Notes under the pieces: generated by a model
What the model was told of the DNA's origin: nothing
Databases searched by the model: none
What the model saw: only the letters and a program-made list of their open reading frames with translations
Made by a program: the position numbers and the translations under genes
NCBI GenBank assembly: GCA_015661185.1
Contig: JACVXU010000003.1
Coordinates: 1-45,312, forward strand
DNA: 45,312 bases
DNA from: Bacteroidota bacterium
GTDB lineage: Bacteria > Bacteroidota > Ignavibacteria > UBA10030
Reading direction: 5' to 3'
Part shown: positions 2,247-18,207 of the stretch, in pieces
Layout of the letters: each line of letters starts with the position of its first letter
Position numbering within the stretch: position 1 is the first letter of the stretch

Positions 2247-3281
2247 TTACGCCGCCCCGAGTTCCTTCCTCACAATTCTCGTTCCCTCCACCATCGCTTT
2301 GAGCTTTCCGAACGCTCGTACGCGCGGCATAAACTTCATGCCGCAGTCCGGGACAATCGACATCTTCTCTGCGGGGATGAGTTTCAGCGCCTGGCGAATA
2401 CGCTCAGCGACGACCGCTGCCGTCTCGACGCTCTCGTCCTTCACGTCGATCACGCCGACGGCAATTTCTTTGTCTGTTGCGTGCTCTTTGAACAGCTCCA
2501 GTCCTACTCCGTTTGAGACGGCAAATTCGAGACACAACTGGTGGGCCTTTGTCTCCAGAATCGCCGGGAACAATTCTGCGTACTGGCCTTTGAACAGCTT
2601 CTTAAGCTGATAATTGCCATAACAGACATGCAGCGCAATTTTCGCGTTGACTCCCTCAACAAGCCTGTTGAACGCTTGCACCAGCCAGGGCATGTCCTGC
2701 GGATATCCGACCCACACCGGCTCGTCGATCTGGATGAAGTCACATCCTGCTGCGACGAGTCCCTTTAACTCTTTGTTCAGGACGTCGGCAAGGTCGAAGA
2801 TCAGCTCCTTTTCATCTTTGTAGTACTCGTTCGTTGCTCGTTTGGCAAGCATTTGCGGACCCGTCACGCAGACTTTTGTACCAGCCACAGTGTGTTCCTT
2901 CAGGTACTTGAAGTGCTTGTCCATGTTCAGACTTTGGACCCATTTTACCTTGTCATGAATGACCGGGTCTGACATTTGAATCGACGAATCGAGATTCCCG
3001 ATAGCGTGCATCTTCGAGTGTTCAAAATCGAAGCCGTGTATGCGTTTCGAGAAGAAGTACACCATCGTCTCGCGGCGTATTTCCCCATCTGTAATGATGT
3101 CGACGCCTGCGAGCTCGTGGTCCTTGATGACGGACTTAACGGCGTTATCATGAGCTTCTTGTACTTGGTCGGGCGTCAGAAGGTTTTTCGTCCCCAGCTC
3201 ACGCACCTGATCGAGCCAGCGTGGAAACGAATAGCTCCCGATGACACTCGTTGGAAGCAGGGGAAGTTTCTCCGGGGTCAA
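2247..3281 (-). CDS. Cobalamin-independent methionine synthase-type protein (MetE C-terminal domain only)
   Basis: This 344-residue protein corresponds to the catalytic C-terminal barrel of MetE (PF01717), which transfers a methyl group to a zinc-bound thiol. The zinc ligand pattern is visible: His218-x-Cys220 (LHVCYG), Glu252 (LEFA) and Cys313 (PDCGM), with the family motif QIDEP at 184-188. It lacks the N-terminal MetE half, so it belongs with the stand-alone 'short MetE' proteins. In such proteins the methyl donor may be something other than methyltetrahydrofolate-triglutamate; which donor or acceptor is used here cannot be told. The start is TTG at 3281, supported by GAAAGGA eight bases upstream; no ATG fits better. 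It is cytoplasmic and appears monocistronic. No SAM or cobalamin riboswitch was recognised upstream. Confidence 0.85.
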   Translation of the reverse strand: MTPEKLPLLPTSVIGSYSFPRWLDQVRELGTKNLLTPDQVQEAHDNAVKSVIKDHELAGVDIITDGEIRRETMVYFFSKRIHGFDFEHSKMHAIGNLDSSIQMSDPVIHDKVKWVQSLNMDKHFKYLKEHTVAGTKVCVTGPQMLAKRATNEYYKDEKELIFDLADVLNKELKGLVAAGCDFIQIDEPVWVGYPQDMPWLVQAFNRLVEGVNAKIALHVCYGNYQLKKLFKGQYAELFPAILETKAHQLCLEFAVSNGVGLELFKEHATDKEIAVGVIDVKDESVETAAVVAERIRQALKLIPAEKMSIVPDCGMKFMPRVRAFGKLKAMVEGTRIVRKELGAA

Positions 3282-3597: not shown

Positions 3598-4626
3598 CTA
3601 TTTCATGCCTACCGTCAGGGTGACGCGATGGACGGAATCCAATATGTCCATTGACGTCATTGCATAGTCAAAGCGGAGAAGATAGCCACTCATTTCGACT
3701 CGCACACCGCCCCCGATCGAAAGTCCCTCGATCGATTGCTTTATGGCCGCCCTGGCACTCGTTCCATCGTCCTGAGCGCCGGAGTAGTTCAGCTTATATC
3801 CGCCTCGTACGGCAAGGAAGCCGCCAAACGTGTACTCACCCCCAACGTAGAACAACTGCGGGCTGTCTTGTGGCTTGACGGCATCAAGAGCTATCAGAAG
3901 ATCGCCGGCACTTTCATCCTTAAGAACTTTGAAGGAGGTGCCGACTCCGAATGTGATCGGGATTGGCGATTCGACGTCATAGTACTTTATTCCTGAGCCC
4001 ATATTGCTGAGTCGCGCCGAGATTTTCCAATCGTGGATCATACCACCCAGCGAACCGATGGTATAAATAGAGCCCACATCCACTGCAAACGCGCTTTTCG
4101 TCATGTCGTCAAGGCTCTCGCTGATGTACTTCACTGTGGCACCCAAAGCAAGTTGATCTGAGAAGTTGCGGGCAAACGTCGCCTGAAGAGCGAGGTCTTG
4201 ATAGTTATAAGTGCCCGACGTTGCGTTGTCAATTTGCTGTGATACCAATGCAGCCGGTGCGATGTCGCGATAGGCCGGAATATCATTGACACCGAACATG
4301 ATCGCGCCGATGCCAACGGTCCCGATATCTCCCAGCTTGTACGATATGCCGAATGCGTTGTGACTTAGGTCGGCTATCCATTTGTTGTATGAGACTGTCC
4401 CTTGCATCTGGTCGTCCTGGAGGGCGATACCTGCCGGATTCCAGAACATCTGGCCAACATCCCCGGTGATCGAGTTGCTCGCGGAACCCAATCCAACGTT
4501 ACGAGCCCCGACTCCCACCTTGAGGAAGGCAGCTGCGTTGAGACCAGCCTTTCGGACCTGTGCCGGAGCATCAAAAACGAGCACAAGCAATGATAGGACG
4601 ATCAATGCAGATCTTAATGATTTCAT
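3598..4626 (-). CDS. PorV/PorQ-family outer-membrane protein, copy 1
   Basis: 342 residues from ATG 4626. The ATG is preceded by AGAGGA at 8 bases and followed at once by a signal peptide (MKSLRSALIVLSLLVLVF, cleavage after APAQ). An in-frame ATG seven codons earlier (4647) would place charged residues before the signal peptide and is rejected. The N-terminal family block KAGLNAAAFLKVGVGARNV, then GDVGQMFWNPAGIA, marks the PorV/PorQ (FadL-like) beta-barrels. PorV in the type IX secretion system carries C-terminal-domain cargo from the translocon to the attachment complex. It is third in its operon, 58 bases after an exported T9SS-type protein, its likely cargo. It is paralogous to the protein at 10691-11731, with nearly identical length. 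The specific cargo role is inferred from position. Confidence 0.85.
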   Translation of the reverse strand: MKSLRSALIVLSLLVLVFDAPAQVRKAGLNAAAFLKVGVGARNVGLGSASNSITGDVGQMFWNPAGIALQDDQMQGTVSYNKWIADLSHNAFGISYKLGDIGTVGIGAIMFGVNDIPAYRDIAPAALVSQQIDNATSGTYNYQDLALQATFARNFSDQLALGATVKYISESLDDMTKSAFAVDVGSIYTIGSLGGMIHDWKISARLSNMGSGIKYYDVESPIPITFGVGTSFKVLKDESAGDLLIALDAVKPQDSPQLFYVGGEYTFGGFLAVRGGYKLNYSGAQDDGTSARAAIKQSIEGLSIGGGVRVEMSGYLLRFDYAMTSMDILDSVHRVTLTVGMK

Positions 4627-4684
4627 GGTTGTTTTCCTCTTAGACACTTTGGTTAGAAAGTCATAGGTCGATGGTTCGTTCTTT

Positions 4685-7252
4685 CTATCTCATGATCGCC
4701 AGATAATTGCGCACCATGCCTCCCGGATATTCCACAATGTAGATGTATAATCCGTTGGCAACCTCCATACCGTCTTTCGAGAACAGATCCCAGAAGAATG
4801 TTCCATTGGTCGGATTCAGAATAGTCTGCTGGAAAACGATTTGCCCGGCGACATCCAGAATCGTGATCTTCGTGTTGTTCGGTATGTTGTTGAACGCAAC
4901 CTTGTGTTCAAGTCCGACGTCAAAGAGCGCTGTTCGTTTATACGGATTGGGTTTCACAAAGATTTTCACTGCCCCGCTTGCTACATCGGACGCCTGAGGC
5001 ACATCGGGCGCAAGAACGAACGCTGCTCCGACAAGCTTCTGGGAAGCGATATCCTTGGGGAACCACGCATTGAATGAGCTGTTTGCGAATGGGTACGTCC
5101 CCATCCACAAGCCGCTGCGTCCGTTGATATTCACTTTATGAGATTCTATTCTTGTCGTCGTCGCGCCGCCCGGTCCGGCAAACGTCCCCTCCTTGTAGGC
5201 GGAGACATAATACCAGTATGTAAATCCTTGCAGCACGTCTGCGTCCGCGTCTTCATAGGCATACTTAAAGCTGCCGCTTGCGCTTGCATACTGCGAGAGA
5301 TTCGCCTTCGGTATGACCTTCACAAGACGGTACGGGCCCCATGAATCCGCCTGCATCAGAGTCTGGACTTCCGAAACAGCGTCAAACTTGGGGTTGACTG
5401 GCTTCAACAGATCTGACGTCGTTTCACCCGGAGTCATTTGTTCCTGGTATCGGTCCATGCCGCGCATTCCACCGTCGATCATTTTGAACTTCGGGAACGG
5501 CTGTGCACGCCAGATCTTGTATCCCTGGAACTGCGGATCCGTTTCGGCTCGGTTATCCCAGCGAACCATGGTCTTTCCTGACGGCGCACCGGCAACCGAG
5601 ACAAGTGGTGCCGGAGGAGGCGTCGGCAGAGAGTTTGCCCCAGTCTCCTTATAACCTCCGGGTGCAGCACCCCAGGCGTTTTCGTACGCCCATCGTGCAG
5701 CCAGCAGGGAGCGTTGGACTCCTTCGAGCCTGTAACCGCCTCCTTCGACCCAAACGATGGTGATCGACTCGCCGACATCCAGTGAAAAAGGACCGACGCC
5801 GTTCATGATATCACCACCGAAGGTGTGTTCGAAGATGAACCCCTTCGTCCATGTGCCGAATCCAGCCGGGTAGTTCGCGTTCGCGTCAGCCTTTCCGTTT
5901 TCCCACGGACCCTGACTAAACGCTGCGACCCCAATGTCCTCGGAATATAACTTTCTGTCACCATTTGGCCGGGTTGCTCCAGTTGTCTTCGGCACAAACG
6001 TCAGGGGTTTGGCGGCATCGCCGCTCGTAAAGAAATTGGAATTGGGAGTGAAAGCCTGGGTGGCGGCATTATTATCTTTCCCTGCGTTCGTATACCACGC
6101 GCCCATGAAGAGCTTGTGCAAACCCTCGGGAGTGCTGGATCCCGGAGGAGCATCACCACCGAATCCACCAATGCCGTTCCCCTGCATTACCGAGTGGTAC
6201 CATCCTCGTTGCGCTGCCGTACCAATCGGGTGCGACCCGAAGATCGTTGGCTTGTCTGCATTCGCAGGGTTCCCATCCCCCTTTTTCACAGAAACAAACG
6301 AGTTGAAGGTCCAGACGTCGGTGTAGGATTTGAGCACTTGCGCGCCATTCACGCCAAGGTTGTACTTGCCCGCATCAACTGTACGATCGGCCTTGACGCG
6401 CGTCGGATCGACTCCCGGGAATGACACAACCATATCCCAGGGTGCCCCCGTCGGGTCGTTGTCACCTACGTAACCGGTATTACGGCCAACGTTGAAGTCG
6501 TTTCCACGGCCGCCGGTGGGGGTCAGGTAGTACGAAATCATCGGCGTACCGTTCCATCCCATCGTGAGAGCGTTGATCTTGTTGTTGGTCTTGTCCACAA
6601 CACCGTCCTTATTCAGATCAACGGCACCCGTGTTCGTCAGTGTAATCTCGTAAATGATGAAGTCATTAAGGTTGGCCCAGTTGACGGTAAATTGTCGGGC
6701 AACGATTTTGATGTCGACGCCAAGGGCTGTAGGAAAACCGACTTCATACATAGCCTGTGTCCGCGAGTTTGCATCAACCCACTTTGTCAGGCGAGCATAG
6801 TCTCTGCTCGCGACTCCCGCCCCTGGTATCTTCGTGCCATACGTTCCAAAAGCGTAGTTTGCCTTGTTTGCACTATTATGAGGTGATGCTGGGAAAAAGG
6901 TCGGATCGGGATTGTATTCGACGATACGCATGTTATGTGACCAGTACTGCCCGTAGTTCCAGCCTCCGGGCCACATTGTCGTCGGCACGTTCCAGTTCCT
7001 GTCCTGGTTGCCCATGTGCATGAAGGTGTGGTTGTTAACCGCATCAGCGCCGGTTTCCCGCCACCACCGATTTGCCGTAGCCGGCGTCATATTATCCGGC
7101 GTGATTCCATCCCAGTAATCGCCCGCTACAAACACCCCCGTGCTGGCGGGTGCAGAGCCCTGCCGTGTATCAGTCTGACCATACGCTGCCGAGGCAAGCA
7201 AGAGTATCAGACCAAAGGCGACAAGCACTGTTGTTAGCTTCTTGTAAACCAT
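4685..7252 (-). CDS. Large T9SS-exported surface protein, copy 1
   Basis: 855 residues from ATG 7252, which has a strong SD (AAGGAGA, 8 bases) and opens a signal peptide (MVYKKLTTVLVAFGLILLL, cleavage near AYGQ). The longer frame, starting 42 codons earlier inside the receptor gene, is rejected. The C-terminal about 85 residues form a type A sorting domain: KPNPYKR, then ITILDVAGQIV, then WDLFSKDGMEVANGLYIY, ending AIMR. Such domains direct T9SS export and are removed or used for anchoring. A fibronectin-III-like segment (about 580-640, SGKTMVRWDNRAETD) precedes it. An Asp-rich loop DLNKDGVVDK at about 212-221 matches a calcium-binding pattern. The main body (about 30-560) is not recognisable to me. 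It lies 37 bases after its TonB receptor and before PorV-1. Function is unknown; ligand capture for the receptor is a hypothesis. Confidence 0.85.
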   Translation of the reverse strand: MVYKKLTTVLVAFGLILLLASAAYGQTDTRQGSAPASTGVFVAGDYWDGITPDNMTPATANRWWRETGADAVNNHTFMHMGNQDRNWNVPTTMWPGGWNYGQYWSHNMRIVEYNPDPTFFPASPHNSANKANYAFGTYGTKIPGAGVASRDYARLTKWVDANSRTQAMYEVGFPTALGVDIKIVARQFTVNWANLNDFIIYEITLTNTGAVDLNKDGVVDKTNNKINALTMGWNGTPMISYYLTPTGGRGNDFNVGRNTGYVGDNDPTGAPWDMVVSFPGVDPTRVKADRTVDAGKYNLGVNGAQVLKSYTDVWTFNSFVSVKKGDGNPANADKPTIFGSHPIGTAAQRGWYHSVMQGNGIGGFGGDAPPGSSTPEGLHKLFMGAWYTNAGKDNNAATQAFTPNSNFFTSGDAAKPLTFVPKTTGATRPNGDRKLYSEDIGVAAFSQGPWENGKADANANYPAGFGTWTKGFIFEHTFGGDIMNGVGPFSLDVGESITIVWVEGGGYRLEGVQRSLLAARWAYENAWGAAPGGYKETGANSLPTPPPAPLVSVAGAPSGKTMVRWDNRAETDPQFQGYKIWRAQPFPKFKMIDGGMRGMDRYQEQMTPGETTSDLLKPVNPKFDAVSEVQTLMQADSWGPYRLVKVIPKANLSQYASASGSFKYAYEDADADVLQGFTYWYYVSAYKEGTFAGPGGATTTRIESHKVNINGRSGLWMGTYPFANSSFNAWFPKDIASQKLVGAAFVLAPDVPQASDVASGAVKIFVKPNPYKRTALFDVGLEHKVAFNNIPNNTKITILDVAGQIVFQQTILNPTNGTFFWDLFSKDGMEVANGLYIYIVEYPGGMVRNYLAIMR

Positions 7253-7289
7253 GATAGTATCTCCTTTAGTTTGGCTGACACTTTGCACG

Positions 7290-10277
7290 TTAGAACTCGA
7301 AGTATGCCCCAAGATATACCTGTCGTGGCATATCGTAGACGCTTGTGCCTTCCTCGAGAATCGCTCTGTTGTATTCACCTGTCGGGTCGCCTGTTTGATG
7401 GAACTTTAACTGGCTTGCTCCAGTCGCCGTCGCATACGCGAGGATGTTCTCCTTGTTGAATATGTTCTTCACATCCATGAAAATGCCGATTCGTTTGCCG
7501 GCGATGGCAAAAGCCTTCTCAAGCCGCAGATCAACCATGCTGTTTGACGGAGCGGTCTCAAGTTGACGCGCGGTTCGGTTGTCCACTGTTGGGTTTGTAT
7601 ACAGGAAGCCACTCGCATACGTTCCAACGACATTCAGGTTAATATCAAACGGGAATTGGAAGGAGAGGGCGTACCCCACCCGATGTGTCCGGTCAAAGCC
7701 AGCGCCGAGCACCGAAGCTCCGCCGCCAACATTGATCTCATATTGTTTGAAGCTCTTTGCATCACCAAATGGAAGCTGGGTAAACACGCTGTCCACCGTA
7801 CCTCTCGCGAACGCGGTCTTGTTCGGTGCAGGTCCGCCTGCCGGCTGCTTGATGACGCTCCATGCATAATTGACGCGTCCCGTTATCTTTACGATATCCT
7901 CAACCGAGTATTGACCGACGTTGAGTGTTACCTCGACTCCTCGTGCGTCGGCGTACCCCGAATTGAAGAAGACGTTGTACGTTGTTACAACCTGTCCCTG
8001 GAGACCCTGCAATGTGTACGCATATCGTGCGAAGTTTTCAACTTCTCTGAAATATGCGTTTGCGTTGACCGAGATGCGCGGTATGAATTCCCAGCTCGCG
8101 CCGAATTCGTAGTTGGTGGACTTGTAGGGGTCCTGGTCCGCACGCATCTGGTTCGGGAGTGACGGGTTGTTCACATTGTTGTAGCCCATGTAAATCTGAG
8201 AGAACGGAAGCGGCTGGCTCGTCCGAGAGAAGGAGAAATACATGGTTGCGTTCTCCGTGATCGGGTGACTTACGCCAATACGCGGCGAGAAGAACCACTT
8301 CAATGCAACCTTGTCGCCACGATAGGGCGAGAAGGCGGCTCTCGGACCGACGTTGAAGCTTCCGGTAGGTGCGTAGACATACGGCGTGTAGAAGTTCGCG
8401 AACTCACTTGCATCAGGATCGAAGCCGTCAATTCTGGCGCCGATATTCATGATGAGGCCGGCAAACTCTATCCTGTCTTGGGCATACGCCCCCACTTCCA
8501 TCGGCTTCTTGTCATACTGCTCAAGCAGTACGCCAACCGAGGGGTCAATATCGGCCGGGGAGATGACGGTCGACCGCCGGTCTTGCTTTACACTGTGCAT
8601 CCGAAGCTGTGCGCCCCCGCGCAGCTGATGGTTGGCCGTGACCTGGCTTGTGAAATCTGCCTTCAGCGTTGTAACACTTGTTTGGAGGTTCTCATGATAG
8701 TAGGTCGGATTTGCAAGCACATTGCCGCCGCCAAAAATGGTGGTAATCGTCGGATCAAGCCCTTGTGTATCGTCGTTGTTGTTGTTAAAGAATTTGCCTG
8801 AACCGATCGCTCCTATGTAGCGCCGGACCTTTGCTGTATCCACACCAAGTACAAGAAAATCTGCGGATCCATTGGTTTGATCGTACTTGTCGGGGATACC
8901 GTCGTTATTAGAGTCGGTGAAGCTGTCCAAGAACCCGATGCGTCCGGATTTGCTGACGCTGCTCACCTGGAGTTCGTAGAAGGTCTCAGGTGTCAGGAAG
9001 TGCGTAAATTTCGCACTGGCCACCAGAGAATATCCATCATTGACAGGCACGCCCTCAAGGAAATACCTCGAAGCATCATTGTATTGCCGATTCTTCCAGC
9101 CGAAGATCTGTCCACGATCCTGGAACACTCCGGTCACGGCGAGTTTCATGCTCTTGGTAAAATCATAATTCGATTTCAAAGAGATATTTGCTTCGCGCGA
9201 GAATTCATTTGGCATGAATCCGTGCGTATCGAAGAGTCTTCCCGTCAAGAACAGACCGAAGTTCTCCATCACCGATCCACCCAACGCAAGTTCACCCTCG
9301 ACCGTTGGCGATTCACCAATCGCGTACGGCTTGCCCGGCGACCAGATATAACGGGCTGACTTCGCAGGAGATGATATCAGAAGTGATCGCTTGTTGCCAA
9401 GGTACTTTGCCGTGTCGGTCGCAGGATAGAACGCGGGACCGAAGTATCCGACCCCCTTCATGAACCGATCAAAGCCCCCACCCCCCATCCGATAGAACAG
9501 TCGTCCCGTCCATGCTCCCCGTCCCTCACGCAGACTTGCGTTGTAGATACCCGCCGATGCCGCCACGTACTCTGCGTTCGCAGCACCCGCGATGACGTTG
9601 AGTTCGGACAAACCGGAGGTGTTGAGATTCACCGTTGTTCCGTTGGCTTCGTAGGGCTTGGTGACACGATTGTAGCGCTTAGCAGCGCTAAGGTCCCCTG
9701 AACCGTCGTAGTCGGTATTTCGAAATTGGTCTGTAACGTCAATTCCGTCCAGCAGGGTTTTTGTCTCTTCCCTCTGGCTGCCACGAATGCGCCCCCTGAA
9801 CACGCTCGCTGTCGTATTCAGTAATTCCTGAACCGAATACACGGGAAGAGCGTTGTTCAGCTCACCCGAGGAGATAACGGTTCGTGTTGAAGTAAGAGTT
9901 TTATCAACAAGCTTTCGCTCAGCCTCCACCACGACTTCTTTCAATCCAATTGCTTCGCTCCGCAGGCTGATGTCAAGGGAAACGGTCTGGTCGGACCGGA
10001 CCTGGACGCCCTGCACAACAGCGCGGGCGTATCCCACCGCCGAGGCGACAACATTGTAGGTACCAGGAGACACAGCAAGGATGACATAGACGCCTTTCTC
10101 ATCGGCTGCGGCGCCCATCAATGTCCCCTCGATAACGACGTTGGCACCCACGACTGGTTCGCCAGTGGCCGCGTCCTTGACGACCCCGGTGATCTTACCG
10201 TTTCCCGCGAACGCCACAAGCGTCGATAGGATCCCGAGGATCAACAGAAGGAGAACTTTGCACCAGGAGTGTTTCAT
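7290..10277 (-). CDS. TonB-dependent outer-membrane receptor, copy 1
   Basis: 995 residues with signal peptide (MKHSWCKVLLLLILGILSTL) and SD CCAAGGAGC. Order of parts: signal peptide; a carboxypeptidase-regulatory-like Ig fold at about 27-110 (GKITGVVKDAATGEPVVGAN, GTYNVVASAVGY), as in SusC-type receptors; a plug region at about 120-250 (LKEVVVEAER, ETKTLLDGIDVTDQF); then a 22-strand-type barrel ending in an aromatic residue (GAYFEF), as expected for BamA-dependent insertion. An insertion DSNNDGIPDKYD resembles a calcium loop. No SusD gene is present; instead the next genes encode a T9SS cargo and a PorV-like protein. It is driven by a near-consensus promoter at 10544-10572 and a long leader. 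It should import an unknown substrate using TonB energy. Confidence 0.9.
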   Translation of the reverse strand: MKHSWCKVLLLLILGILSTLVAFAGNGKITGVVKDAATGEPVVGANVVIEGTLMGAAADEKGVYVILAVSPGTYNVVASAVGYARAVVQGVQVRSDQTVSLDISLRSEAIGLKEVVVEAERKLVDKTLTSTRTVISSGELNNALPVYSVQELLNTTASVFRGRIRGSQREETKTLLDGIDVTDQFRNTDYDGSGDLSAAKRYNRVTKPYEANGTTVNLNTSGLSELNVIAGAANAEYVAASAGIYNASLREGRGAWTGRLFYRMGGGGFDRFMKGVGYFGPAFYPATDTAKYLGNKRSLLISSPAKSARYIWSPGKPYAIGESPTVEGELALGGSVMENFGLFLTGRLFDTHGFMPNEFSREANISLKSNYDFTKSMKLAVTGVFQDRGQIFGWKNRQYNDASRYFLEGVPVNDGYSLVASAKFTHFLTPETFYELQVSSVSKSGRIGFLDSFTDSNNDGIPDKYDQTNGSADFLVLGVDTAKVRRYIGAIGSGKFFNNNNDDTQGLDPTITTIFGGGNVLANPTYYHENLQTSVTTLKADFTSQVTANHQLRGGAQLRMHSVKQDRRSTVISPADIDPSVGVLLEQYDKKPMEVGAYAQDRIEFAGLIMNIGARIDGFDPDASEFANFYTPYVYAPTGSFNVGPRAAFSPYRGDKVALKWFFSPRIGVSHPITENATMYFSFSRTSQPLPFSQIYMGYNNVNNPSLPNQMRADQDPYKSTNYEFGASWEFIPRISVNANAYFREVENFARYAYTLQGLQGQVVTTYNVFFNSGYADARGVEVTLNVGQYSVEDIVKITGRVNYAWSVIKQPAGGPAPNKTAFARGTVDSVFTQLPFGDAKSFKQYEINVGGGASVLGAGFDRTHRVGYALSFQFPFDINLNVVGTYASGFLYTNPTVDNRTARQLETAPSNSMVDLRLEKAFAIAGKRIGIFMDVKNIFNKENILAYATATGASQLKFHQTGDPTGEYNRAILEEGTSVYDMPRQVYLGAYFEF

Positions 10278-10315
10278 GATGTTGCTCCTTGGATGTAGAA
10301 GTAAATCAGTGATTT
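10278..10315 (-). promoter_or_regulatory. Conserved 5'-UTR block A, copy 1 (contains SD)
   Basis: The 38 bases directly upstream of the receptor start are identical except for one base to 17425-17462, upstream of the paralogous receptor. They contain the SD AAGGAG. The conservation extends a little into the signal-peptide codons (TCCTGGTGCA), while the remaining coding sequences have diverged. This suggests selection on translation control or recent conversion. Confidence 0.7.
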
Positions 10316-10400
10316 GTGTTGTAGACAGAACTACAGAGGAACTCGAGATAAGACCGTGGCCCCGGATTGGAAATGTTCCGGAGAGGGTACAGCGAAAGTT

Positions 10401-10472
10401 CGTAGCACTTTGGTTTTTCTCAACACCTCCCTTCGGCTTTGGATCAGAATGATGCAGTCAAGATGCCGGAGG
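10401..10472 (-). promoter_or_regulatory. Conserved mid-leader block B, copy 1
   Basis: Within the 5' leader, minus-strand sequence GGGAGGTGTTGAGA followed by AAAGTGCTAC (10401-10432) recurs at 17549-17579 as AGGAGGTGCTGAGA and AAAGTGCTAC. In both copies a CCTCC lies upstream in the transcript (10468-10472 and 17602-17606) and could pair with the GGAGG. This is a candidate structured RNA or a hidden leader SD. No credible leader peptide was found, because the only GTG overlaps the SD itself. Confidence 0.5.
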
Positions 10473-10522
10473 AGCTATGACCTGCGGCAGTTGGGTGTCA
10501 GGAGAAACCCGGTTTTACTGGT

Positions 10523-10572
10523 GAAACTTGGTTTCTTTGGCGAATTATAAACTTTTTTGGAAGGAATGTCAA
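10523..10572 (-). promoter_or_regulatory. Near-consensus promoter with start-site palindrome, operon 1
   Basis: The minus strand reads TTGACA (10567-10572), 17 bases, TATAAT (10544-10549). Eight bases further comes GAAACCAAGTTTC (10523-10535), an inverted repeat covering about +2 to +14. The same three elements with the same spacing (17 bases, then 9) occur upstream of the paralogous operon. The palindrome is a good candidate operator. The transcript would have a leader of about 260 bases. Confidence 0.8.
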
Positions 10573-10614
10573 GCGGCGGCCTTGCCACCGTTTGGCGCAG
10601 GTGTGGAAATGGCC

Positions 10615-10654
10615 AAAAACACAACGGTCAGGGCGATAACCCTCGCCCTGACCG
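10615..10654 (-). terminator. Strong intrinsic terminator of operon 2
   Basis: A perfect 12-bp stem, CGGTCAGGGCGA 10625-10636 with TCGCCCTGACCG 10643-10654, has a 6-base loop. On the minus strand it is followed by TTGTGTTTTTGG. It lies 36 bases after the PorV-2 stop and separates the upstream operon from the promoter of operon 1. Confidence 0.85.
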
Positions 10655-10690
10655 CTTGTTATAGAAATAGCAAGAGGACGTACGGTCCCT

Positions 10691-11731
10691 CTACTTCATT
10701 GAAACGTGGAGCGTAATCCGGTGAACGTCGGAGAAGGAGGTGAAAACCGTATACGAGTAGTCAACGGAGAGCATATACTCCGCCATCGGAACGCGCACGC
10801 CGGCACCCAACGATCCCTTTTCAAGGCTCGTCCTGACTCCTAGCCGCTGTGAGGTCCCCTCGTCTATGCCATCACCCGCCAGTCCGAGGTAGCTGTAGTT
10901 CATTTTCCATCCACCGCGCAGGAAGATCATGTTGTTGAAGTTGTACTCCATCCCCGTATAGTAGTACTGCTGTCCGTCCTGCGGCTTCACCGCATCCACG
11001 GCAAAGGTGACAGCGCTTTCGCCGATGCGAATCGGCGTCATCGATGTTCCCATGCTGAATGTCAACGGGATCGGGGAAGCATAATCATAGAACTTCACAT
11101 CACTTCCCAGGTTGCTGATGCGGGCACCAATGTTCCAATTGAGAAGCCCGATGTTGTACACCGAGCCCAGATCGAACCCAACCGCCGTGGCATTCATGTC
11201 GTCGATCTTCTCGCTTATCAGTTTTACCGACGCACCAAGTGCGAGGCGATCCATGACGTACGTGGAGTATGTCACCTGGGCGAGCAGGTCCATGTAGTCA
11301 TAGGTACTCGCAGTGCCCTGGTCGATTTGCAGTGCCTGGAGGACGGCATTTCCGGGGTACACATCACGGTCAGCCGGGATGCCGGTCATTCCAAAGGTCA
11401 TCACACCGACGCCGATCGTGCCGATACCTTCCATTTGGTAGGCTCCGGCGAACGCGTTCTGTGTGAGGCCTCCGATCCAGGAATTGTACGTAAACGATAC
11501 CTGTGCCTTTTCGTTGTTCATCGCAACACCGGCGGGGTTCCAGAACATGTTCGTCACGTCTCCATTCATGGATGTGACGGCGGAGCCCATGCCGACCTGC
11601 TTTGCCCCAACGCCGACTTTCAGAAACGCAGCGCTGTTGATTCCAGCTTTGCGCGTCTGGCCGGTCACAATCCCGGTGGCAAAAACCACGAGGAGCAAAG
11701 CCGCAATAGATGTTGAAGAGATCTTTTTCAT
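10691..11731 (-). CDS. PorV/PorQ-family outer-membrane protein, copy 2
   Basis: 346 residues from ATG 11731, with GAGGG about 8 bases upstream and a signal peptide (MKKISSTSIAALLLVVFATG, cleavage near VTGQ). The ATG five codons earlier overlaps that SD and is rejected. It carries the same family signature as copy 1: KAGINSAAFLKVGVGAKQV and GDVTNMFWNPAGVA. The rest reads as alternating beta-barrel strands ending in a hydrophobic strand (RITLHVSMK). It lies 25 bases after its presumed T9SS cargo gene and is followed by a perfect terminator. Two PorV-like genes this close, each paired with one cargo, suggests dedicated shuttles rather than one general PorV; that is inference. Confidence 0.85.
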   Translation of the reverse strand: MKKISSTSIAALLLVVFATGIVTGQTRKAGINSAAFLKVGVGAKQVGMGSAVTSMNGDVTNMFWNPAGVAMNNEKAQVSFTYNSWIGGLTQNAFAGAYQMEGIGTIGVGVMTFGMTGIPADRDVYPGNAVLQALQIDQGTASTYDYMDLLAQVTYSTYVMDRLALGASVKLISEKIDDMNATAVGFDLGSVYNIGLLNWNIGARISNLGSDVKFYDYASPIPLTFSMGTSMTPIRIGESAVTFAVDAVKPQDGQQYYYTGMEYNFNNMIFLRGGWKMNYSYLGLAGDGIDEGTSQRLGVRTSLEKGSLGAGVRVPMAEYMLSVDYSYTVFTSFSDVHRITLHVSMK

Positions 11732-11756
11732 AGATCTTGCCCTCATAGTTATTTGA

Positions 11757-14336
11757 TTATCGTAAGATGGAGAATTGCCCTATCTTCTTGTCGCCGGTTG
11801 GTGATTCGACGACGTAAAGATAAACACCGCTTGCCACTTCGAGGCCATCCTTGGAGAACATATCCCAGAATGTGCTGCCGCGATTTGCATCAGTGGAGCT
11901 GAAGTTGATCACATCGATGATCTGACCTGCGACATCAGCGATAGTGATGGTGCACTGCGGAGGCAGGTTGTAGAACAGGAGCTTGTGATCATACACGTTT
12001 GCTCTGTTGTCATGCAGTGCCGCGCGCTTGTACGGATTCGGGCGGACACTGACATTCGCGACCGAGCCGGCGGGGGCAAGCGCCGAGTAAACCACCTGCA
12101 CCGCGCCTATGTCTTTCAATCCCTGCGCTGGAGCCGTAATGTCGGTGGTTGCCAGCTTGCCGAAGTTGGCATTCTGAGTCCCAAACGGGAAGGTAAAGCG
12201 CCATAATCCGGTTGCACCATTCCTGTTTGTCGAGTGTGTCTCGATGCGGGTCGTTGTTTCACCATCCGGACCGGTATACGTGCCTTCTTTGTATGCCGCA
12301 ACGTAATACCAGTATGAGAACCCGAGCACAACGTCCTTATCTTCGTATCTATATTTGTAGCCGGTCGTGGTTGCTGCCGGATAGCTGACCAGCGAGCCCT
12401 TGGGAATCACGGCAACCAGATCCCATGTTCCCCACGTGTCGGGCTGATAGGTCCCTTGAGCGACTGTTGAATTGACCTGGCCGAACGCGTCAAACTTCGG
12501 GTTGACGGGCTTCTTGAGGTTTGCAGGAATCGGCCCCGGTGTCATGTTTTCCTGATACCGGTCGACAACGCGCATCCCTTCCTCAAGGTAACTCTTCTTC
12601 AGATACTGGGATGACTTATAGATTTTATAGCCGGCGAATTCTGCATCGGTCTCGGCCCGGACATCCCACTCAATCGCCACCGACTTGGCTAGCGTGTTGG
12701 TGACCTTCACATCGGGCATCGGCGGAAGCACGGGTATGTTGTAGTTTTGCGCATACGCCCAGCGCGCCGCACGGACCGCCTTCTGAATGCCTTCCAGGCG
12801 GAAGCCCGCTACGGACGCCACCACGATGGTGATGGAGGAATCTTTTGGAATGCTGAACGGACCAACGCCGGCAATCATATCACCATTGAAATTCTCGGTG
12901 TTGCTGGCTCCTTTGGAGAATGTTCCCCAACCGTTGGGATAGTTCGTGGTTGCATCGGCTTTGCCGTCTTCGAATGATTTCTGGTCGAAAATGCCAGAGC
13001 TCTTAAAGTCTCCATCCGGTCGCAATCTGCTTCCCGCCGGCTTGGGGACAAACGTCGTTATGTCACCAGATGTACCGCTGGCAAAGAAGTTCGGATTGGG
13101 ACCCAAATTCATGTTTGCGGTGGACGTTTGACGACCTTTGCCGCCATCCGCGTACCATGCACCGACGGTTGTGACAAACATACCTTGCGGATTTCCGAGG
13201 GTCCACGTCAACGGACTGCTGCCGCCGGAGGCGTACCAACCGCGCTCGGGACCGATACCAATCGGGTCGGTTCCAAAAAGCGTTTCTTTTTTGGGATTGG
13301 TCACAACGGTCTTTGAGCGATCTGCTGGCAGGCCGCCTCTTCTCACATCGATCATTAGCACGCCGCTCCAAACGTCGGTATAGACTTTCTGGGCGCCGGT
13401 ATTGAATCCGAGATCAACGTTTCCGGCTGTTGGGTTTATCACCGACGCACTGCAAAACATGCTGCTGAAGGCCCAGGGCGATCCGTTCTGATCAAGGTCG
13501 TCCACCCATGCTGCCTGGCGGGCGACTGGCGTTGCAACAATATCGTTCCTGTTCCGTCCGCCACCGAGCTGGCTACCAATGGACATATAGGACTCGGTGC
13601 TATATTGCAGCGCGATCGCCTTAATCTGGTTTGTCAGTTTCTCGGCAACACCATCCAGATTCATATCAAGCACGCCGGTATTCTTCAGTTCGATTTCGAT
13701 TATGACGAAATCGTTCAGGTTGTTCCAGTTTGGTCCCTGAAATCCATGCGCCCGGAGCTTCACGTCGACGCCCATGTTTGTGGGCCACGCTGCTTCGTAG
13801 ACCGCGTGCTGACGCCGGTTGCCATCGACCCAATACGGATCGATGGAATAGTGACGGTTCGGATCGGTCGCTCCGCTCAACAACGCTCCGTAGGTGAACT
13901 GCCCATAGTTGGGGCCGGAGTTCGCGAAATAGCTCGGATTTGTCTTCCCGGCAATGGTCGCTGGGTTGAATGTAACATCCGGGTCGTACGCGAGCACGGC
14001 GATGTTCTTGAACCAATAGGTGGTGTACGGATATGCATTCGGCCAGTGTGTACCTGGCGTGCTCCATCCACGCTCGAAATTACCCAGGCGGATAAAATTG
14101 CGGGCACCCAGGGTTGTGTATGTTCCTGCGTCGCTGTAGCTCAGGGCTGTCGTGCCTACTGGGTAGCCTTGCGGCAGGAACGATTCCCACGCATCGCCGG
14201 CCTGTATCACACCCGCACCGGGATAGTTCGCCACCGAGGTGGCGGGGGAGGTCTGGGCGAACATCGTGAGCGGAACGACAGCGAGCAATAGAGCAAGAAC
14301 TGCGAGGAGCAATTCTTTTTGTCTTGTCATGTTCAT
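11757..14336 (-). CDS. Large T9SS-exported surface protein, copy 2
   Basis: 859 residues from ATG 14336 (GGAG seven bases upstream), with signal peptide (MNMTRQKELLLAVLALLLAV, cleavage near MFAQ). An earlier in-frame ATG at 14366 gives a hydrophilic leader and is rejected. It parallels copy 1 throughout: similar early Trp/Asn-rich motifs (NWNNLNDFVI against NWANLNDFII), an Asp-rich loop LDMNLDGVAEK at about 223-233, a fibronectin-like segment (SVAIEWDVRAETDAEF), RVVDRYQENMTPG near 620, and a type A sorting domain (RPNPYKR, TITIADVAGQI, FWDMFSKDGLEVASGVYLY, FSILR). It should be exported by T9SS and displayed at the surface. It lies 46 bases after its receptor gene. Biochemical role is unknown. 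Confidence 0.85.
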   Translation of the reverse strand: MNMTRQKELLLAVLALLLAVVPLTMFAQTSPATSVANYPGAGVIQAGDAWESFLPQGYPVGTTALSYSDAGTYTTLGARNFIRLGNFERGWSTPGTHWPNAYPYTTYWFKNIAVLAYDPDVTFNPATIAGKTNPSYFANSGPNYGQFTYGALLSGATDPNRHYSIDPYWVDGNRRQHAVYEAAWPTNMGVDVKLRAHGFQGPNWNNLNDFVIIEIELKNTGVLDMNLDGVAEKLTNQIKAIALQYSTESYMSIGSQLGGGRNRNDIVATPVARQAAWVDDLDQNGSPWAFSSMFCSASVINPTAGNVDLGFNTGAQKVYTDVWSGVLMIDVRRGGLPADRSKTVVTNPKKETLFGTDPIGIGPERGWYASGGSSPLTWTLGNPQGMFVTTVGAWYADGGKGRQTSTANMNLGPNPNFFASGTSGDITTFVPKPAGSRLRPDGDFKSSGIFDQKSFEDGKADATTNYPNGWGTFSKGASNTENFNGDMIAGVGPFSIPKDSSITIVVASVAGFRLEGIQKAVRAARWAYAQNYNIPVLPPMPDVKVTNTLAKSVAIEWDVRAETDAEFAGYKIYKSSQYLKKSYLEEGMRVVDRYQENMTPGPIPANLKKPVNPKFDAFGQVNSTVAQGTYQPDTWGTWDLVAVIPKGSLVSYPAATTTGYKYRYEDKDVVLGFSYWYYVAAYKEGTYTGPDGETTTRIETHSTNRNGATGLWRFTFPFGTQNANFGKLATTDITAPAQGLKDIGAVQVVYSALAPAGSVANVSVRPNPYKRAALHDNRANVYDHKLLFYNLPPQCTITIADVAGQIIDVINFSSTDANRGSTFWDMFSKDGLEVASGVYLYVVESPTGDKKIGQFSILR

Positions 14337-14382
14337 AGTGTTACTCCATTTAATAGTATGGTTCACAGCCAGTGTCGTTCTC

Positions 14383-17300
14383 TTAGAAATCGATCCTCAC
14401 GCCAAAGTAGTACTCGCGCGGAATGTCGTAGAACGGGCTTCCATCCGCAGCAACGGCGCGACGATAGGTGCCTGTCGGATCGGGTGTTCCGTCATTCAAC
14501 TTCGCTATTCCGGCATTGGAATACTCCCAAAGCTGGGCACCCGAGACTGAGTTGTCGTAGCCGATGATATTCTTCCAGGCAAACAGGTTCTTCATATCGA
14601 AGAAGACTGCGAAGCGAATATTCTCAATCGTGAATCCTTTCTCGATTCGCAGATCGACCATTTTGTTCCATGGCGCTTTGCCCAGCTCTCGCCCGGCAAC
14701 GCGTGGATCGGCTGTGACAGACAACGGATAATAGAATCCGCTTTGGAATGTTCCAATGGACGAAAGCATGACCTGATATGGAAACTCCAGGAAGAGAACG
14801 TAGCTGATTCTATGCGCCCTGTCGTAACCTCCCGTCAGAAGATTGTTGCCGCCGGAGACATCGTTCTGTACCTTGTTATAGGACCAGAAATCGTCGAACG
14901 GCAGGAGTTGGCCGTATTTGAGAGTGTCTGGACGCGAGAAGGAACTTTGCTGCGCTGGATCGTTTCCTACCCAGCCAGATGCCTTCACATAGCTGTACGT
15001 ATAGTTCACGCGTCCATAGAGGGTCAGGAAATCAAAATACGTCTGCCGCAGGGCTTGAATCCCAAATTCAACACCCCGCGCGTCGGCATACTGCGAAGAG
15101 ATCCACATGGCGTTCTGACCGTTCGCGAGGAACAGGGAGATTTGGTTCTGGCTGTAGTTTTCAATATCCCGCATGTACGCTGTGAACGTGAAACCGAACT
15201 TTCTCGGGATGAATTCCCACTGCGCACCGAGCTCATAGTTCGACGATCTGACGGGTTCCTGCCGCAAGCTCGCGTACTGCGGAAGTCCGCCGGCCGAACC
15301 GAGAACTTCGTTGTAGCTTGCATACAGACGCGAGAACGGCGGCGGAATGAAGTTACGGGAGTACGAGAAATACATCGCCGCTTCGTCCGAGATCGGGTGG
15401 GAAACACCAATACGCGGAGAGAAGAAGTAGTACGGTTCCACATCACTCTTGGCCCGAATCGGAATGAGATCCGCACGGACGCTGTCGTCAACATAGACCT
15501 GCTGATTCAAAAATAGATTGTAGTAGCTCGCCCAGTCGGCTGCTTTGGGATCCCACCGGTCGAGCCTGGCGCCGAGGTTGATCACAAGCCCCGCATACTC
15601 CATGCGGTCTTGCAGGTAGACACCGTACTCGGTTGGCTTGAATTCCCATTTCTCTACAAGGAGCCTTCGCCTCACGTCCGTTGCATCGGCTCCCAACGTT
15701 GAGTTCCGCTGCACCTTGCTGATGTCGTGGAACCGGAGGGAAATACCGCCTTTGAGCTGGTTATGGAAATCAACCTGGCTCGTGATATCGAATTTCACCG
15801 TGTTGACGGTGTTCGTCGTGTTCTCATAATAGAACTGCGGCCGGGTGATGATGATCTGCGTGTTGCCGGCGCTCATAGGCTGAGTGATCATGCTTTCGTT
15901 CTGCTCGTTTCCAACCCGGAAGAACTTGTACAGCTCGAGGCCGGAACGGGAGATGTACTTATCGGCATCGGTCGTCTTCTCGAGTGTCAGGAAATCCCCG
16001 TCTTCATTGAGTGAAGCGATGCCGTCGCCATTGTCGTCAGAGTATCCCATCCGGTCGTTGCGGTAGGTCTGGCTGAGTTGTACCTCATAGAAGGTTGAAG
16101 GCGAGAGCACATGCGTTGCTTTGAGACTTCCAATAATCTTGACACCATCGCTCTTCGGAACGCCTTCGAGGAAGAGCCTCGCATTGTCATTGTAATAGCT
16201 GTTCTTCCATCCAAACAACTTGCCTTTGTCGTTGACGATTGCAAAGGCGTTGAGCTTGAACTCGCGGCCCAGGTTGTACGTTGTCTTGAATGTAAAGTCA
16301 GCCTGGCGTTCCCGCTCGTTCGGAAGACGCCCGTGTGTATCGAAATACTTGCCGCTGAGCAGGAATCCCCAATCATCGTTGATGCTTCCGCTGATCATTC
16401 CATCGACTTCGATTTGCGGCGAGTCCTGGTTGAGGTATTTTCCTTTGCTGTAGGTATACTTCGAACCTTTTGTGCTGTCCCGTGCGATAAGCGCTACACG
16501 GGCTGAACTCCATGCTGTCGTCTGGAGTGTCCGCATGGAGTCGAGTCTTCGGAGTGTTGCGCCCTTTTCATCCAAGTACACCTGATCATTCCAATAGAGG
16601 TCTGGACCGTCGTACTTGAGCCCCGTCGGTTGGCTCGAGCGGGCGCTGAAACTGCCTGTCATTTTCCCGCGGCCTTCACGGAGGGAGTAGTTGATCAAGC
16701 CGGCCGTTGCCGATGCATTGTCTGCACCGACAGCTCCGGTGTTCACCGACAACTGCTCAACCGAGTTAAAGTTGACTGAGGCAGATGTGCTCAACTGATT
16801 GTCTCTGTAACGGGTCACATAGGCACCAGTCAGGATGCCCTGGTTTGCCTGGTCGCCGCCAATTGCGTAGTACTGATCGCTGACATCAACACCGTCAACG
16901 ATGGTCTTGGTCTCTGTAATCTTGCCGCCGCGAATAAATCCCTTGAAGGCGCCGGGCGTGGTATTGAGAATTTCCAGCGTTCCTGAGATCGGCAGCTTAT
17001 TGGACAACTCATCTTTGCCAATTGTCGATTTGGAAGATGTTTGTGATTTATCAACAACTCTCATCTGCGCCTGCACGACAACTTCCTTCAGCTCGATTGT
17101 TTCTTGACGCAACTCGAAGTTGAGATCTGTTGTCTGATCAGCTCGCACTTGGACACCGCTGATCTCCGTACGAGCGTAACCCACGACGGACGCCTGCACC
17201 GTGTATGTCCCCGGAGGAACGTTGAGAATGTAGTATCGTCCCTCGGGATCCGTTGCTGCTCCCATCGTCGTCCCTACAATCACCACATTCGCGCCTACAA

Positions 17301-17424
17301 CAGCGTCTTTGTTGGAGGCGTCTTTCACGGTCCCGGAGATCTTTCCGTTCCCGGCAAAGAGGAGCGCAGGGATGGTGAGGCTAATCAAGAGAATCAGGAG
17401 AACTGTGCACCAGGAGTATCTCAT
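14383..17424 (-). CDS. TonB-dependent outer-membrane receptor, copy 2
   Basis: 1013 residues with signal peptide (MRYSWCTVLLILLISLTIPA) and SD CCAAGGAGC. It has a carboxypeptidase-regulatory-like domain (about 28-110, GKISGTVKDASNKDAVVGAN), a plug (IELKEVVVQAQ, ETKTIVDGVDVSDQY) and a long barrel ending GVRIDF. A calcium-type loop, YSDDNGDGIASLNEDGD, lies in an extracellular-loop region at the place matching the DSNNDGIPDKYD insert of copy 1. It heads operon 2 (receptor, T9SS cargo, PorV-2). It is preceded by a near-consensus promoter at 17791-17819 and a leader of about 360 bases. Substrate is unknown; there is no SusD partner. Confidence 0.9.
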   Translation of the reverse strand: MRYSWCTVLLILLISLTIPALLFAGNGKISGTVKDASNKDAVVGANVVIVGTTMGAATDPEGRYYILNVPPGTYTVQASVVGYARTEISGVQVRADQTTDLNFELRQETIELKEVVVQAQMRVVDKSQTSSKSTIGKDELSNKLPISGTLEILNTTPGAFKGFIRGGKITETKTIVDGVDVSDQYYAIGGDQANQGILTGAYVTRYRDNQLSTSASVNFNSVEQLSVNTGAVGADNASATAGLINYSLREGRGKMTGSFSARSSQPTGLKYDGPDLYWNDQVYLDEKGATLRRLDSMRTLQTTAWSSARVALIARDSTKGSKYTYSKGKYLNQDSPQIEVDGMISGSINDDWGFLLSGKYFDTHGRLPNERERQADFTFKTTYNLGREFKLNAFAIVNDKGKLFGWKNSYYNDNARLFLEGVPKSDGVKIIGSLKATHVLSPSTFYEVQLSQTYRNDRMGYSDDNGDGIASLNEDGDFLTLEKTTDADKYISRSGLELYKFFRVGNEQNESMITQPMSAGNTQIIITRPQFYYENTTNTVNTVKFDITSQVDFHNQLKGGISLRFHDISKVQRNSTLGADATDVRRRLLVEKWEFKPTEYGVYLQDRMEYAGLVINLGARLDRWDPKAADWASYYNLFLNQQVYVDDSVRADLIPIRAKSDVEPYYFFSPRIGVSHPISDEAAMYFSYSRNFIPPPFSRLYASYNEVLGSAGGLPQYASLRQEPVRSSNYELGAQWEFIPRKFGFTFTAYMRDIENYSQNQISLFLANGQNAMWISSQYADARGVEFGIQALRQTYFDFLTLYGRVNYTYSYVKASGWVGNDPAQQSSFSRPDTLKYGQLLPFDDFWSYNKVQNDVSGGNNLLTGGYDRAHRISYVLFLEFPYQVMLSSIGTFQSGFYYPLSVTADPRVAGRELGKAPWNKMVDLRIEKGFTIENIRFAVFFDMKNLFAWKNIIGYDNSVSGAQLWEYSNAGIAKLNDGTPDPTGTYRRAVAADGSPFYDIPREYYFGVRIDF

Positions 17425-17462
17425 GATGTTGCTCCTTGGATGTAGAAGTATATCAGTGATTT
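17425..17462 (-). promoter_or_regulatory. Conserved 5'-UTR block A, copy 2 (contains SD)
   Basis: The 38 bases immediately before the receptor start match 10278-10315 with one mismatch. Intervening leader sequence between block A and block B is not conserved, so A is a discrete element. It contains the SD AAGGAG at normal spacing. Confidence 0.7.
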
Positions 17463-17547
17463 AATAATCGAATCGTAAGAAATGCAGAAGAGCGCAAGAA
17501 AAATGGGCAGCGCGTTGATGTTTCCCGTAGGAGATACTGCGAATACC

Positions 17548-17606
17548 GTAGTAGCACTTTGTCTGTCTCAGCACCTCCTTTCCGGTTTTGTTTTGAACGA
17601 CGGAGG
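17548..17606 (-). promoter_or_regulatory. Conserved mid-leader block B, copy 2
   Basis: Minus-strand AGGAGGTGCTGAGA and AAAGTGCTAC match the block at 10401-10432. Here CTCA-x-CCTCC just upstream in the transcript can pair with GGAGG-xxx-TGAG, giving a two-part stem. Just downstream, TACTACG and CGCAGTA (17535-17553) can form a 7-bp stem with one mismatch. It is a candidate cis-acting RNA; ligand or factor unknown. Confidence 0.45.
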
Positions 17607-17768
17607 ATGAGATCAACTGCTTCGTTGTCCGCGGTGCGGCTGCAACACTCTCTCACCAAGCGGACAGCGCTGGGTTTGATAACTACACTGGAGATCTCTT
17701 GCGGAGTACTACTGCACAAGAGGGGTTGGCCCGAGGGGGCAATCGTTCATGCACGAAGTTTCATTACT

Positions 17769-17819
17769 GAAACTTGGTTTCATCGGGGTTAGTATAGAAC
17801 AATTTGCCGGAAATGTCAA
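17769..17819 (-). promoter_or_regulatory. Near-consensus promoter with start-site palindrome, operon 2
   Basis: The minus strand reads TTGACA (17814-17819), 17 bases, TATACT (17791-17796). Nine bases further is GAAACCAAGTTTC (17769-17781), identical to the palindrome of operon 1. An extra GAAAC half-site lies at 17758-17762. A shared regulator for both operons is likely. Confidence 0.8.
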
Positions 17820-18207
17820 GCTGAGACCTCTGCGTTATGGAGAGAACATGGGAGTGCTCCATCTAACGCGTTGGGGTTTCAGGGATGGAACAATCCGACC
17901 TTGTTTTGCAGACTCCAACGAACATTTCATCAAAAATTACTAAATTAAGTTCTGGCCAATCCTTCCGGCGGTAGGCATAACCGTGAAGTTCTGAATCTTC
18001 GCATACATCTCCCCCCCAGAAACAAAAGCCGGTTCTTTTCCGTAAGACGGAAAGGGCCGTCATACGCCGAAAACGATAACGCCTCATGAATACCGAATAT
18101 GAATGATGACGGGAAGATTGACCCGCCTCAACATTCGACGTTCGGCGATCGATATCATCAACGATCCATCCAGTCGGTGGCAATTCCATTTCTTAGGAGG
18201 CATGCAC
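17820..18207. other. Divergent intergenic region without a supported gene
   Basis: This lies between the divergent operon-2 promoter and the plus-strand repeat protein. A GC-flanked inverted repeat (CTTTTCCGT, AAG, ACGGAAAG) occurs around 18034-18054. No clear plus-strand promoter was found. The SD TAGGAGG at 18194-18200 belongs to the next gene. A 108-codon minus-strand frame here has no protein-like features. Confidence 0.5.

Follow-up and report, generated by a model that had tools for sequence, protein, structure and literature searches.

The stretch of DNA analysed here, referred to as the window, comprises 45,312 nucleotides of a Bacteroidota bacterium of the class Ignavibacteria (assembly GCA_015661185.1, contig JACVXU010000003.1) and carries on its minus strand two tandem operons, 17424-10691 (operon 2) and 10277-3598 (operon 1). 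Each of them consists of a TonB-dependent receptor (TBDR), a surface protein of the type IX secretion system (T9SS) type, hereafter the cargo, and a PorV-family barrel, in that order (Table 1). All six genes had been named in a first-pass annotation of the sequence, and their positions, order, strand and lengths (1013/995, 859/855 and 346/342 aa) were borne out. Open reading frames (ORFs) were called mechanically and signal peptides were judged by eye. We read each trio as a cassette for TonB-dependent glycan uptake, in which a T9SS-exported protein with a dedicated PorV-family carrier would serve as the surface ligand-binding partner; a probability of roughly 0.55 is given to this reading.

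The genes within the trios are separated by 46, 25, 37 and 58 nt, and the trios by 413 nt. Comparison of the two operons revealed paralogous receptors (E=1e-221), cargos (44% identity) and barrels (E=5e-99). The leaders are 74% identical over the aligned columns, and the final 25 nt before the receptor starts are the same in both. Since the leaders are alike, each trio has its own promoter and a terminator lies between the trios, the cassette pair is a duplication of an entire transcription unit. No natural fusion joining receptor, cargo or PorV was found among the ORFs searched. A possible third cassette with operon-2-type receptor and cargo, G000:C306 (L079), is truncated by both contig ends; it may represent a genuine paralogue or a redundancy between strains in the assembly.

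Conservation of the trio

A search of other genomes for the trio, as had been proposed in the first-pass annotation, was run with a profile of the cargo and gave 78 loci in named genomes. Receptor, cargo and PorV are adjacent, on the same strand and in the same order in 62 of the 69 loci readable on both sides; the receptor stands immediately upstream of the cargo in 66/73 and PorV downstream in 68/75. Receptor and exported protein are therefore not rarely found together, which the annotation had named as the outcome that would tell against its proposal. By record title, the trio occurs in Ignavibacteria, Kryptonia, Rhodothermales, Latescibacterota, KSB1, Gemmatimonadota, Calditrichota, Marinimicrobia and Coatesbacteria, the names of metagenome-assembled genomes being fallible (one contig stands under two phyla, L131 and L132). 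This identical 56302-bp contig, present in KSB1 and Phycisphaerae bins, is a binning error in public data. Relatives hold up to 15 copies of the trio per genome. Within the phylum, close window-type cargos are uncommon, being met at E<=1e-30 in 9 of 395 genomes sampled; the E-values of these home-made profiles refer to small sets.

In five contiguous relatives all 69 PorV-family genes were classed by locus, with priority given to profile matches where frames overlapped. The order TBDR, cargo with C-terminal domain (CTD), PorV was observed for 39 of them, TBDR before PorV for 5, a CTD protein before PorV for 8, and other settings for 17. The class with a CTD protein before PorV includes the loci in which that protein has ~1340 aa; its counterpart in the window's own genome is PorU. 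Strong matches to the receptor profile have PorV downstream in 44 of 49 cases, against 0 of 30 for weaker TBDRs. Because these genomes hold large numbers of TBDR, CTD and PorV genes, the three outer-membrane families might have come together by chance; this reading was considered and is rejected as wholly implausible, given the single gene order over several phylum-level lineages and the lack of PorV near any of those 30 other receptors.

Receptor, cargo and PorV also diverge together within genomes (Spearman 0.64-0.73, p=0.002, labels shuffled within genomes). A profile of the window-type cargo from which the CTD had been removed matched 30 of the 39 cassette cargos at once and 38 after iteration, and just 4 of the 54 other CTD proteins of the same loci; three of these four lie in TBDR-PorV variant loci and the fourth in a CTD-PorV locus. 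The cassette cargo cores, the CTD being removed, are by this profile comparison one family. Taken together, gene order, the cargo-core family, the receptor-PorV pairing and co-divergence argue for a three-family system comparable to SusC with SusD, and the trio is supported as a conserved, co-inherited unit. Variants were also met. At L190, L193 and L218 a cargo-family protein precedes another gene and the receptor, which stands directly before PorV, and at the Calditrichota-type loci L141, L147 and L154 receptor, cargo and PorV are followed by a second cargo.

Receptors and PorV-family barrels

The receptors possess a CarbopepD_reg_2 N-terminal domain (PF13715, E=1.8e-22 and 3e-18) in addition to plug and barrel, the barrel being found in receptor 2 with PF00593 (E=3.8e-20) and the plug of receptor 1 with a weak match (E=0.015). 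Against solved structures, the receptor profile A5 matched N-terminal domains as well as plugs or barrels of ordinary receptors for siderophores, colicins and haem, the plug matches including the colicin I and enterobactin receptors. The designation as SusC-type receptors proved too strong: the SusC/RagA model TIGR04056 gave 61.4 and 53.8 bits, far under its curated cut-off of 368.25, and the PorV-linked receptors have diverged from SusC as well as from other TBDRs in the same genomes. The accompanying claim that no SusD exists held for the locus, since no SusD adjoins the trio and the trio proteins have no SusD match in Pfam; it did not hold for the genome, where two SusD-like matches lie elsewhere. 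The possibility that a SusD-like gene recurs ahead of the receptors in relatives was examined and rejected. The ~500-aa upstream genes are mostly mutually unrelated; their largest cluster consists of six lipoprotein-like proteins and the others are, by eye, GH30-, GH28- and GH88-like (GH, glycoside hydrolase), esterase or LacI genes.

Both barrels score above the cut-off of 90 bits for the PorV_fam model NF033709 (Table 1) and below that for canonical PorV, NF033710 (77.9 and 54.8 bits, cut-off 250); the PorQ model also failed. Separate T9SS parts are present in the genome, namely SprA (873.8 bits), PorU (1002.7 bits) and, adjoining PorU, a canonical PorV (280.4 bits). Among 61 relatives PorV-family genes were found in all, in 2-25 copies, and SusD (PF07980) in 18.

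Type B cargos are known to have shuttles of their own, and type A cargos are all said to use one PorV (PMC12618676, PMC12635249). Following this, any PorV, including the canonical one beside PorU, might carry any cargo, extra copies merely raising the dose. We hold this to be unlikely, because the 39 cassettes each have a PorV of their own (median identity among them 30%) that co-diverges with its cargo within the genome, and the carriers in the window fall under the canonical cut-off. Gene order and co-divergence lend good support to the earlier suggestion that each cargo has its own PorV-like carrier encoded alongside, and from them we also argue that the rule of one PorV for all type A cargos may not hold here.

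Structure of the cargo

A structure model of cargo 1 (pLDDT 85.3, pTM 0.88) was compared with known folds. Its first ~500 residues contain a predicted galactose-mutarotase-like supersandwich that resembles domain N in enzymes of the families GH15, GH94, GH65 and GH116 (Z up to 16.6 over alignments of about 240-285 residues, root-mean-square deviation (rmsd) 3.4-4.6); the term supersandwich is our reading of these fold matches. A SusD-type fold is not among the listed fold matches, an absence which is no disproof. The C-terminus of the model has the Ig-like CTD fold of PorZ and PorU, resembling the PorZ structure 5m11 (Foldseek probability 1.00, rmsd 3.6), and a profile search matched PorU and PorZ chains. 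Among the 39 cassette cargos the CTD matches the PorZ model in 23, the commonest NCBIfam match, and TIGR04183 in 18. Hydrophobic N-termini were read by eye on the cargos.

These features could also belong to an enzyme or binding protein secreted to the cell surface, acting on a polymer at a distance, forming no complex with the receptor and having PorV simply as its carrier. A shared pathway alone would explain co-inheritance in an operon, and many sugar-active enzymes have supersandwich domains. On the other hand, only the supersandwich was matched, the catalytic (alpha/alpha)6 helical barrel of the best fold matches having no counterpart in cargo 1, and a single cargo family is paired with a single receptor subfamily across very different settings, which a partnership in a pathway need not produce. 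Action at a distance is accordingly regarded as somewhat unlikely.

Neighbouring genes and likely substrate

Downstream of the window-type trio, the most constant neighbour is a MetE-like protein (c3), sometimes accompanied by URO-D/MtaA-like methyltransferases. The protein c5 gave no match in Pfam, NCBIfam or PDB sequence searches, and its likeness was found by fold alone: a full-length relative in L089 resembles, over its whole length, GH138 (rhamnogalacturonan II), GH67/GH115 alpha-glucuronidases, GH89 and GH20 (Foldseek E to 2e-12; for GH138 Z 15.8, 581 residues, rmsd 5.5). Other followers are c4 (25 loci, weak GH match), c6 (class V aminotransferase, 17 loci) and c7 (dextran dextrinase/cellobiose phosphorylase-like, 12 loci), while fewer loci contain a UgpA/MalF-like permease of sugar ABC (ATP-binding cassette) type, a sodium symporter, PhyH, URO-D and GFO/IDH/MocA proteins. 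Near other cassettes, LacI regulators and GH30, alpha-amylase, chondroitinase B and heparinase families were found.

The GH67/GH138-like fold, the sugar ABC permease, the IclR regulator and the operator (see below) make the neighbours point to glycan uptake, so that the uptake function first read from the window agrees with a genomic setting typical of carbohydrate uptake. A uronic-acid or amino-sugar glycan is our best guess for the substrate in the window; for other cassettes, different substrates are probable.

Promoters, operator and candidate regulator

In both promoters (Table 1), GAAACCAAGTTTCA follows immediately after the -10 element, a 14-mer unique to these two sites in the 4.33 Mb genome. 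Of 55 related loci, 17 carry the pattern RAAAC-N3-GTTTY before the receptor, versus 0.47 in shuffled sequence; with any other spacer of 0 to 8, its half-sites were found in 0 or 1 loci. A third half-site (ACTAATRAAA) often comes next after the palindrome. Published IclR-family motifs are palindromes of the form TGRAAC...GTTYCA, some of them with three boxes, and the pectin regulator KdgR belongs to this type (PMC8222616, PMC5559549). With these KdgR-type and three-box operators the sites share TGRAAC/GTTYCA half-sites, an odd-length palindrome and a third box, but the inner bases differ, the third-box spacing differs by one and no regulator gene is adjacent in the window (PMC8222616). Compared with the IclR group 2 operator TGRAACAN1-2TGTTYCA, the half-sites and the 15-bp length agree and the inner A/T disagree. 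The segments 10504-10535 and 17760-17781 are described as a three-box IclR-type operator, with a third-box spacing one base below the published consensuses; such an operator may help to predict a regulon. An Rfam search of the operon leaders found nothing.

In two Rhodothermales loci, L112 and L119, the gene directly upstream of the receptor is an IclR gene (Pfam); by eye, L122 and L138 are arranged in the same way. The sole IclR gene of the window's genome (G000:C159:1273-2061), whose product is 38% identical to the IclR protein of L119, is flanked by LarA-like and xylose-isomerase-like genes (by eye) and is not adjacent to the cassettes in the window. We infer that this protein is the putative binder of the operator site TGAAACCAAGTTTCA. 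The duplication, which is real, had been taken to suggest two related substrates. As both operons share one operator, they probably respond together to one signal and not to two unrelated substrates.

Proposed mechanism and relation to known systems

In the proposed mechanism, the cargo would cross the inner membrane by Sec, be exported through SprA and be taken off the translocon by the co-encoded PorV paralogue. Its uncleaved PorZ-like CTD would keep it on that barrel without passing to PorU. This retention step has a precedent, as the CTDs of PorZ and PorU are retained on PorQ and PorV, respectively, and cognate PorV-like barrels have been proposed in a review to shield CTDs from cleavage (PMC10202324). 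The supersandwich domain would bind a surface glycan and hand it over to the adjacent receptor, which would import it using TonB energy; downstream glycosidase-like enzymes would process the imported glycan, and an IclR-type repressor would sense a breakdown product and release the operators at both promoters. Homology and gene order are no proof of function; dedicated carriage, CTD retention, glycan binding, receptor contact, import and the identity of the regulator are what we infer.

Several observations weigh against this reading. The type A sorting domain TIGR04183 scored 19.8 and 15.9 bits at the cargo C-termini, below its cut-off of 23. The supersandwich fold is not confined to sugar-binding proteins, being present, for instance, in the periplasmic domain of YidC. 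Nearest-neighbour agreement among the three proteins amounts to just 20-22 of 39, about half, and each family of carbohydrate-active enzymes near other cassettes was met just 2-5 times among 100 proteins scanned, without a control set. The Marinimicrobia cassettes (L142-L152, L159) have FG-GAP/ASPIC-UnbV and TPR proteins next to them and no glycosidases, so the substrate there may differ. This lack of adjoining sugar genes, along with the divergence of PorV-linked receptors from SusC and from TBDRs of the same genomes, would also suit a receptor-like barrel that imports no nutrient and instead displays or anchors the cargo, as an adhesin or surface-layer protein, or signals. We consider that quite improbable, since the TonB-box-like motif, CarboxypepD domain, plug and barrel are all retained, and catabolic genes and a sugar-type regulator repeatedly flank the window-type trio.

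If the uptake cassette is real, it is SusCD-like in its working yet not SusC/SusD, as the receptors fall short of the TIGR04056 cut-off and a SusD partner is lacking. It resembles the SusC/SusD (RagA/RagB) importers of polysaccharide utilization loci in the CarboxypepD-domain TonB receptor, the co-encoded surface partner, the glycosidases and regulator nearby and the many paralogues per genome, and differs from them in that the receptor is under the SusC/RagA cut-off, the partner is a T9SS CTD supersandwich protein in place of a SusD lipoprotein and a PorV barrel is added. With the PorZ-PorQ and PorU-PorV attachment complex (PMC10202324) it would share a surface protein whose uncleaved CTD holds it on a barrel of the PorV/PorQ family; PorZ, however, serves delivery of anionic lipopolysaccharide (A-LPS), whereas the cassettes add a co-encoded receptor and occur in many copies. 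Type B T9SS substrates likewise each have a barrel of their own (PorP/SprF), often encoded directly downstream (PMC12635249, PMC12618676), but the cassette CTD is type-A-like and the barrel belongs to the PorV family, while published type A substrates share one PorV.

In the open-access literature, most subscription papers and all preprints being outside this coverage, neither the trio nor any pairing of PorV paralogues with TonB receptors was found described. The results suggest a little-noticed sugar-uptake machine that is built unlike the textbook SusC/SusD pair. If this is true, most PorV genes in these bacteria are parts of importers and do not serve secretion only, many genes named just "PorV/PorQ family protein" or "T9SS sorting domain protein" receive a function, the uptake of complex carbon by bacteria of the Fibrobacterota-Chlorobiota-Bacteroidota (FCB) group with few or no SusD genes is explained, and the published rule of one recycled PorV common to all type A cargos is broken. 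It is possible, and proposed here tentatively, that receptor, T9SS-exported binding protein and dedicated PorV form one stable outer-membrane import complex, a further import architecture widespread in deep FCB lineages; T9SS would then assemble nutrient importers, and type-A-like cargos would have private, non-recycled PorV carriers.

Features of the window

Table 1. Positions of cassette genes, control elements and conserved neighbours in the window
Feature	Position	Strand	Basis and remarks
Promoter of operon 2, TTGACA-17-TATACT, 11/12	17791..17819	-	consensus match only
Operator palindrome GAAACCAAGTTTC directly past the -10 of operon 2, then third half-site (TAATGAAAC)	17769..17781	-	
Receptor 2, TonB-dependent receptor, 1013 aa	14383..17424	-	signal peptide, CarboxypepD_reg-like domain, TonB-box-like EVVV, plug, barrel; Pfam and profile A5, EVVV read from sequence
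Cargo 2, T9SS-type surface protein, 859 aa	11757..14336	-	supersandwich family by core hidden Markov model, type-A-like CTD
PorV/PorQ-family barrel 2, 346 aa	10691..11731	-	NF033709, 163.9 bits (cut-off 90)
Intrinsic terminator after PorV2, 14-pair stem, between the operons	10623..10656	-	sequence
Promoter of operon 1, TTGACA-17-TATAAT, 12/12	10544..10572	-	consensus match only
Operator palindrome GAAACCAAGTTTC again, at operon 1	10523..10535	-	
Second palindrome AAAACCGGGTTTC at operon 1	10504-10516		
Receptor 1, TonB-dependent receptor, 995 aa	7290..10277	-	Pfam, profile A5
Cargo 1, T9SS-type surface protein, 855 aa	4685..7252	-	predicted supersandwich, fn3-like domain and CTD
PorV/PorQ-family barrel 1, 342 aa	3598..4626	-	NF033709, 181.8 bits (cut-off 90)
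Meth_synt_2 (MetE-like) protein, conserved downstream neighbour c3, 27 loci	2247..3281	-	Pfam, neighbour clustering
Conserved neighbour c5, 24 loci	81..1841	-	without Pfam family; full-length relative folds like GH138/GH67/GH115/GH89/GH20 glycosidases

Besides these features, the window encodes at 18103-19926 (+) a divergent, secreted-looking protein of 607 aa with internal repeats, which belongs to no Pfam or NCBIfam family above cut-off. At four loci elsewhere, L084, L105, L109 and L128, relatives of this protein (cluster c14) lie close to the trio.

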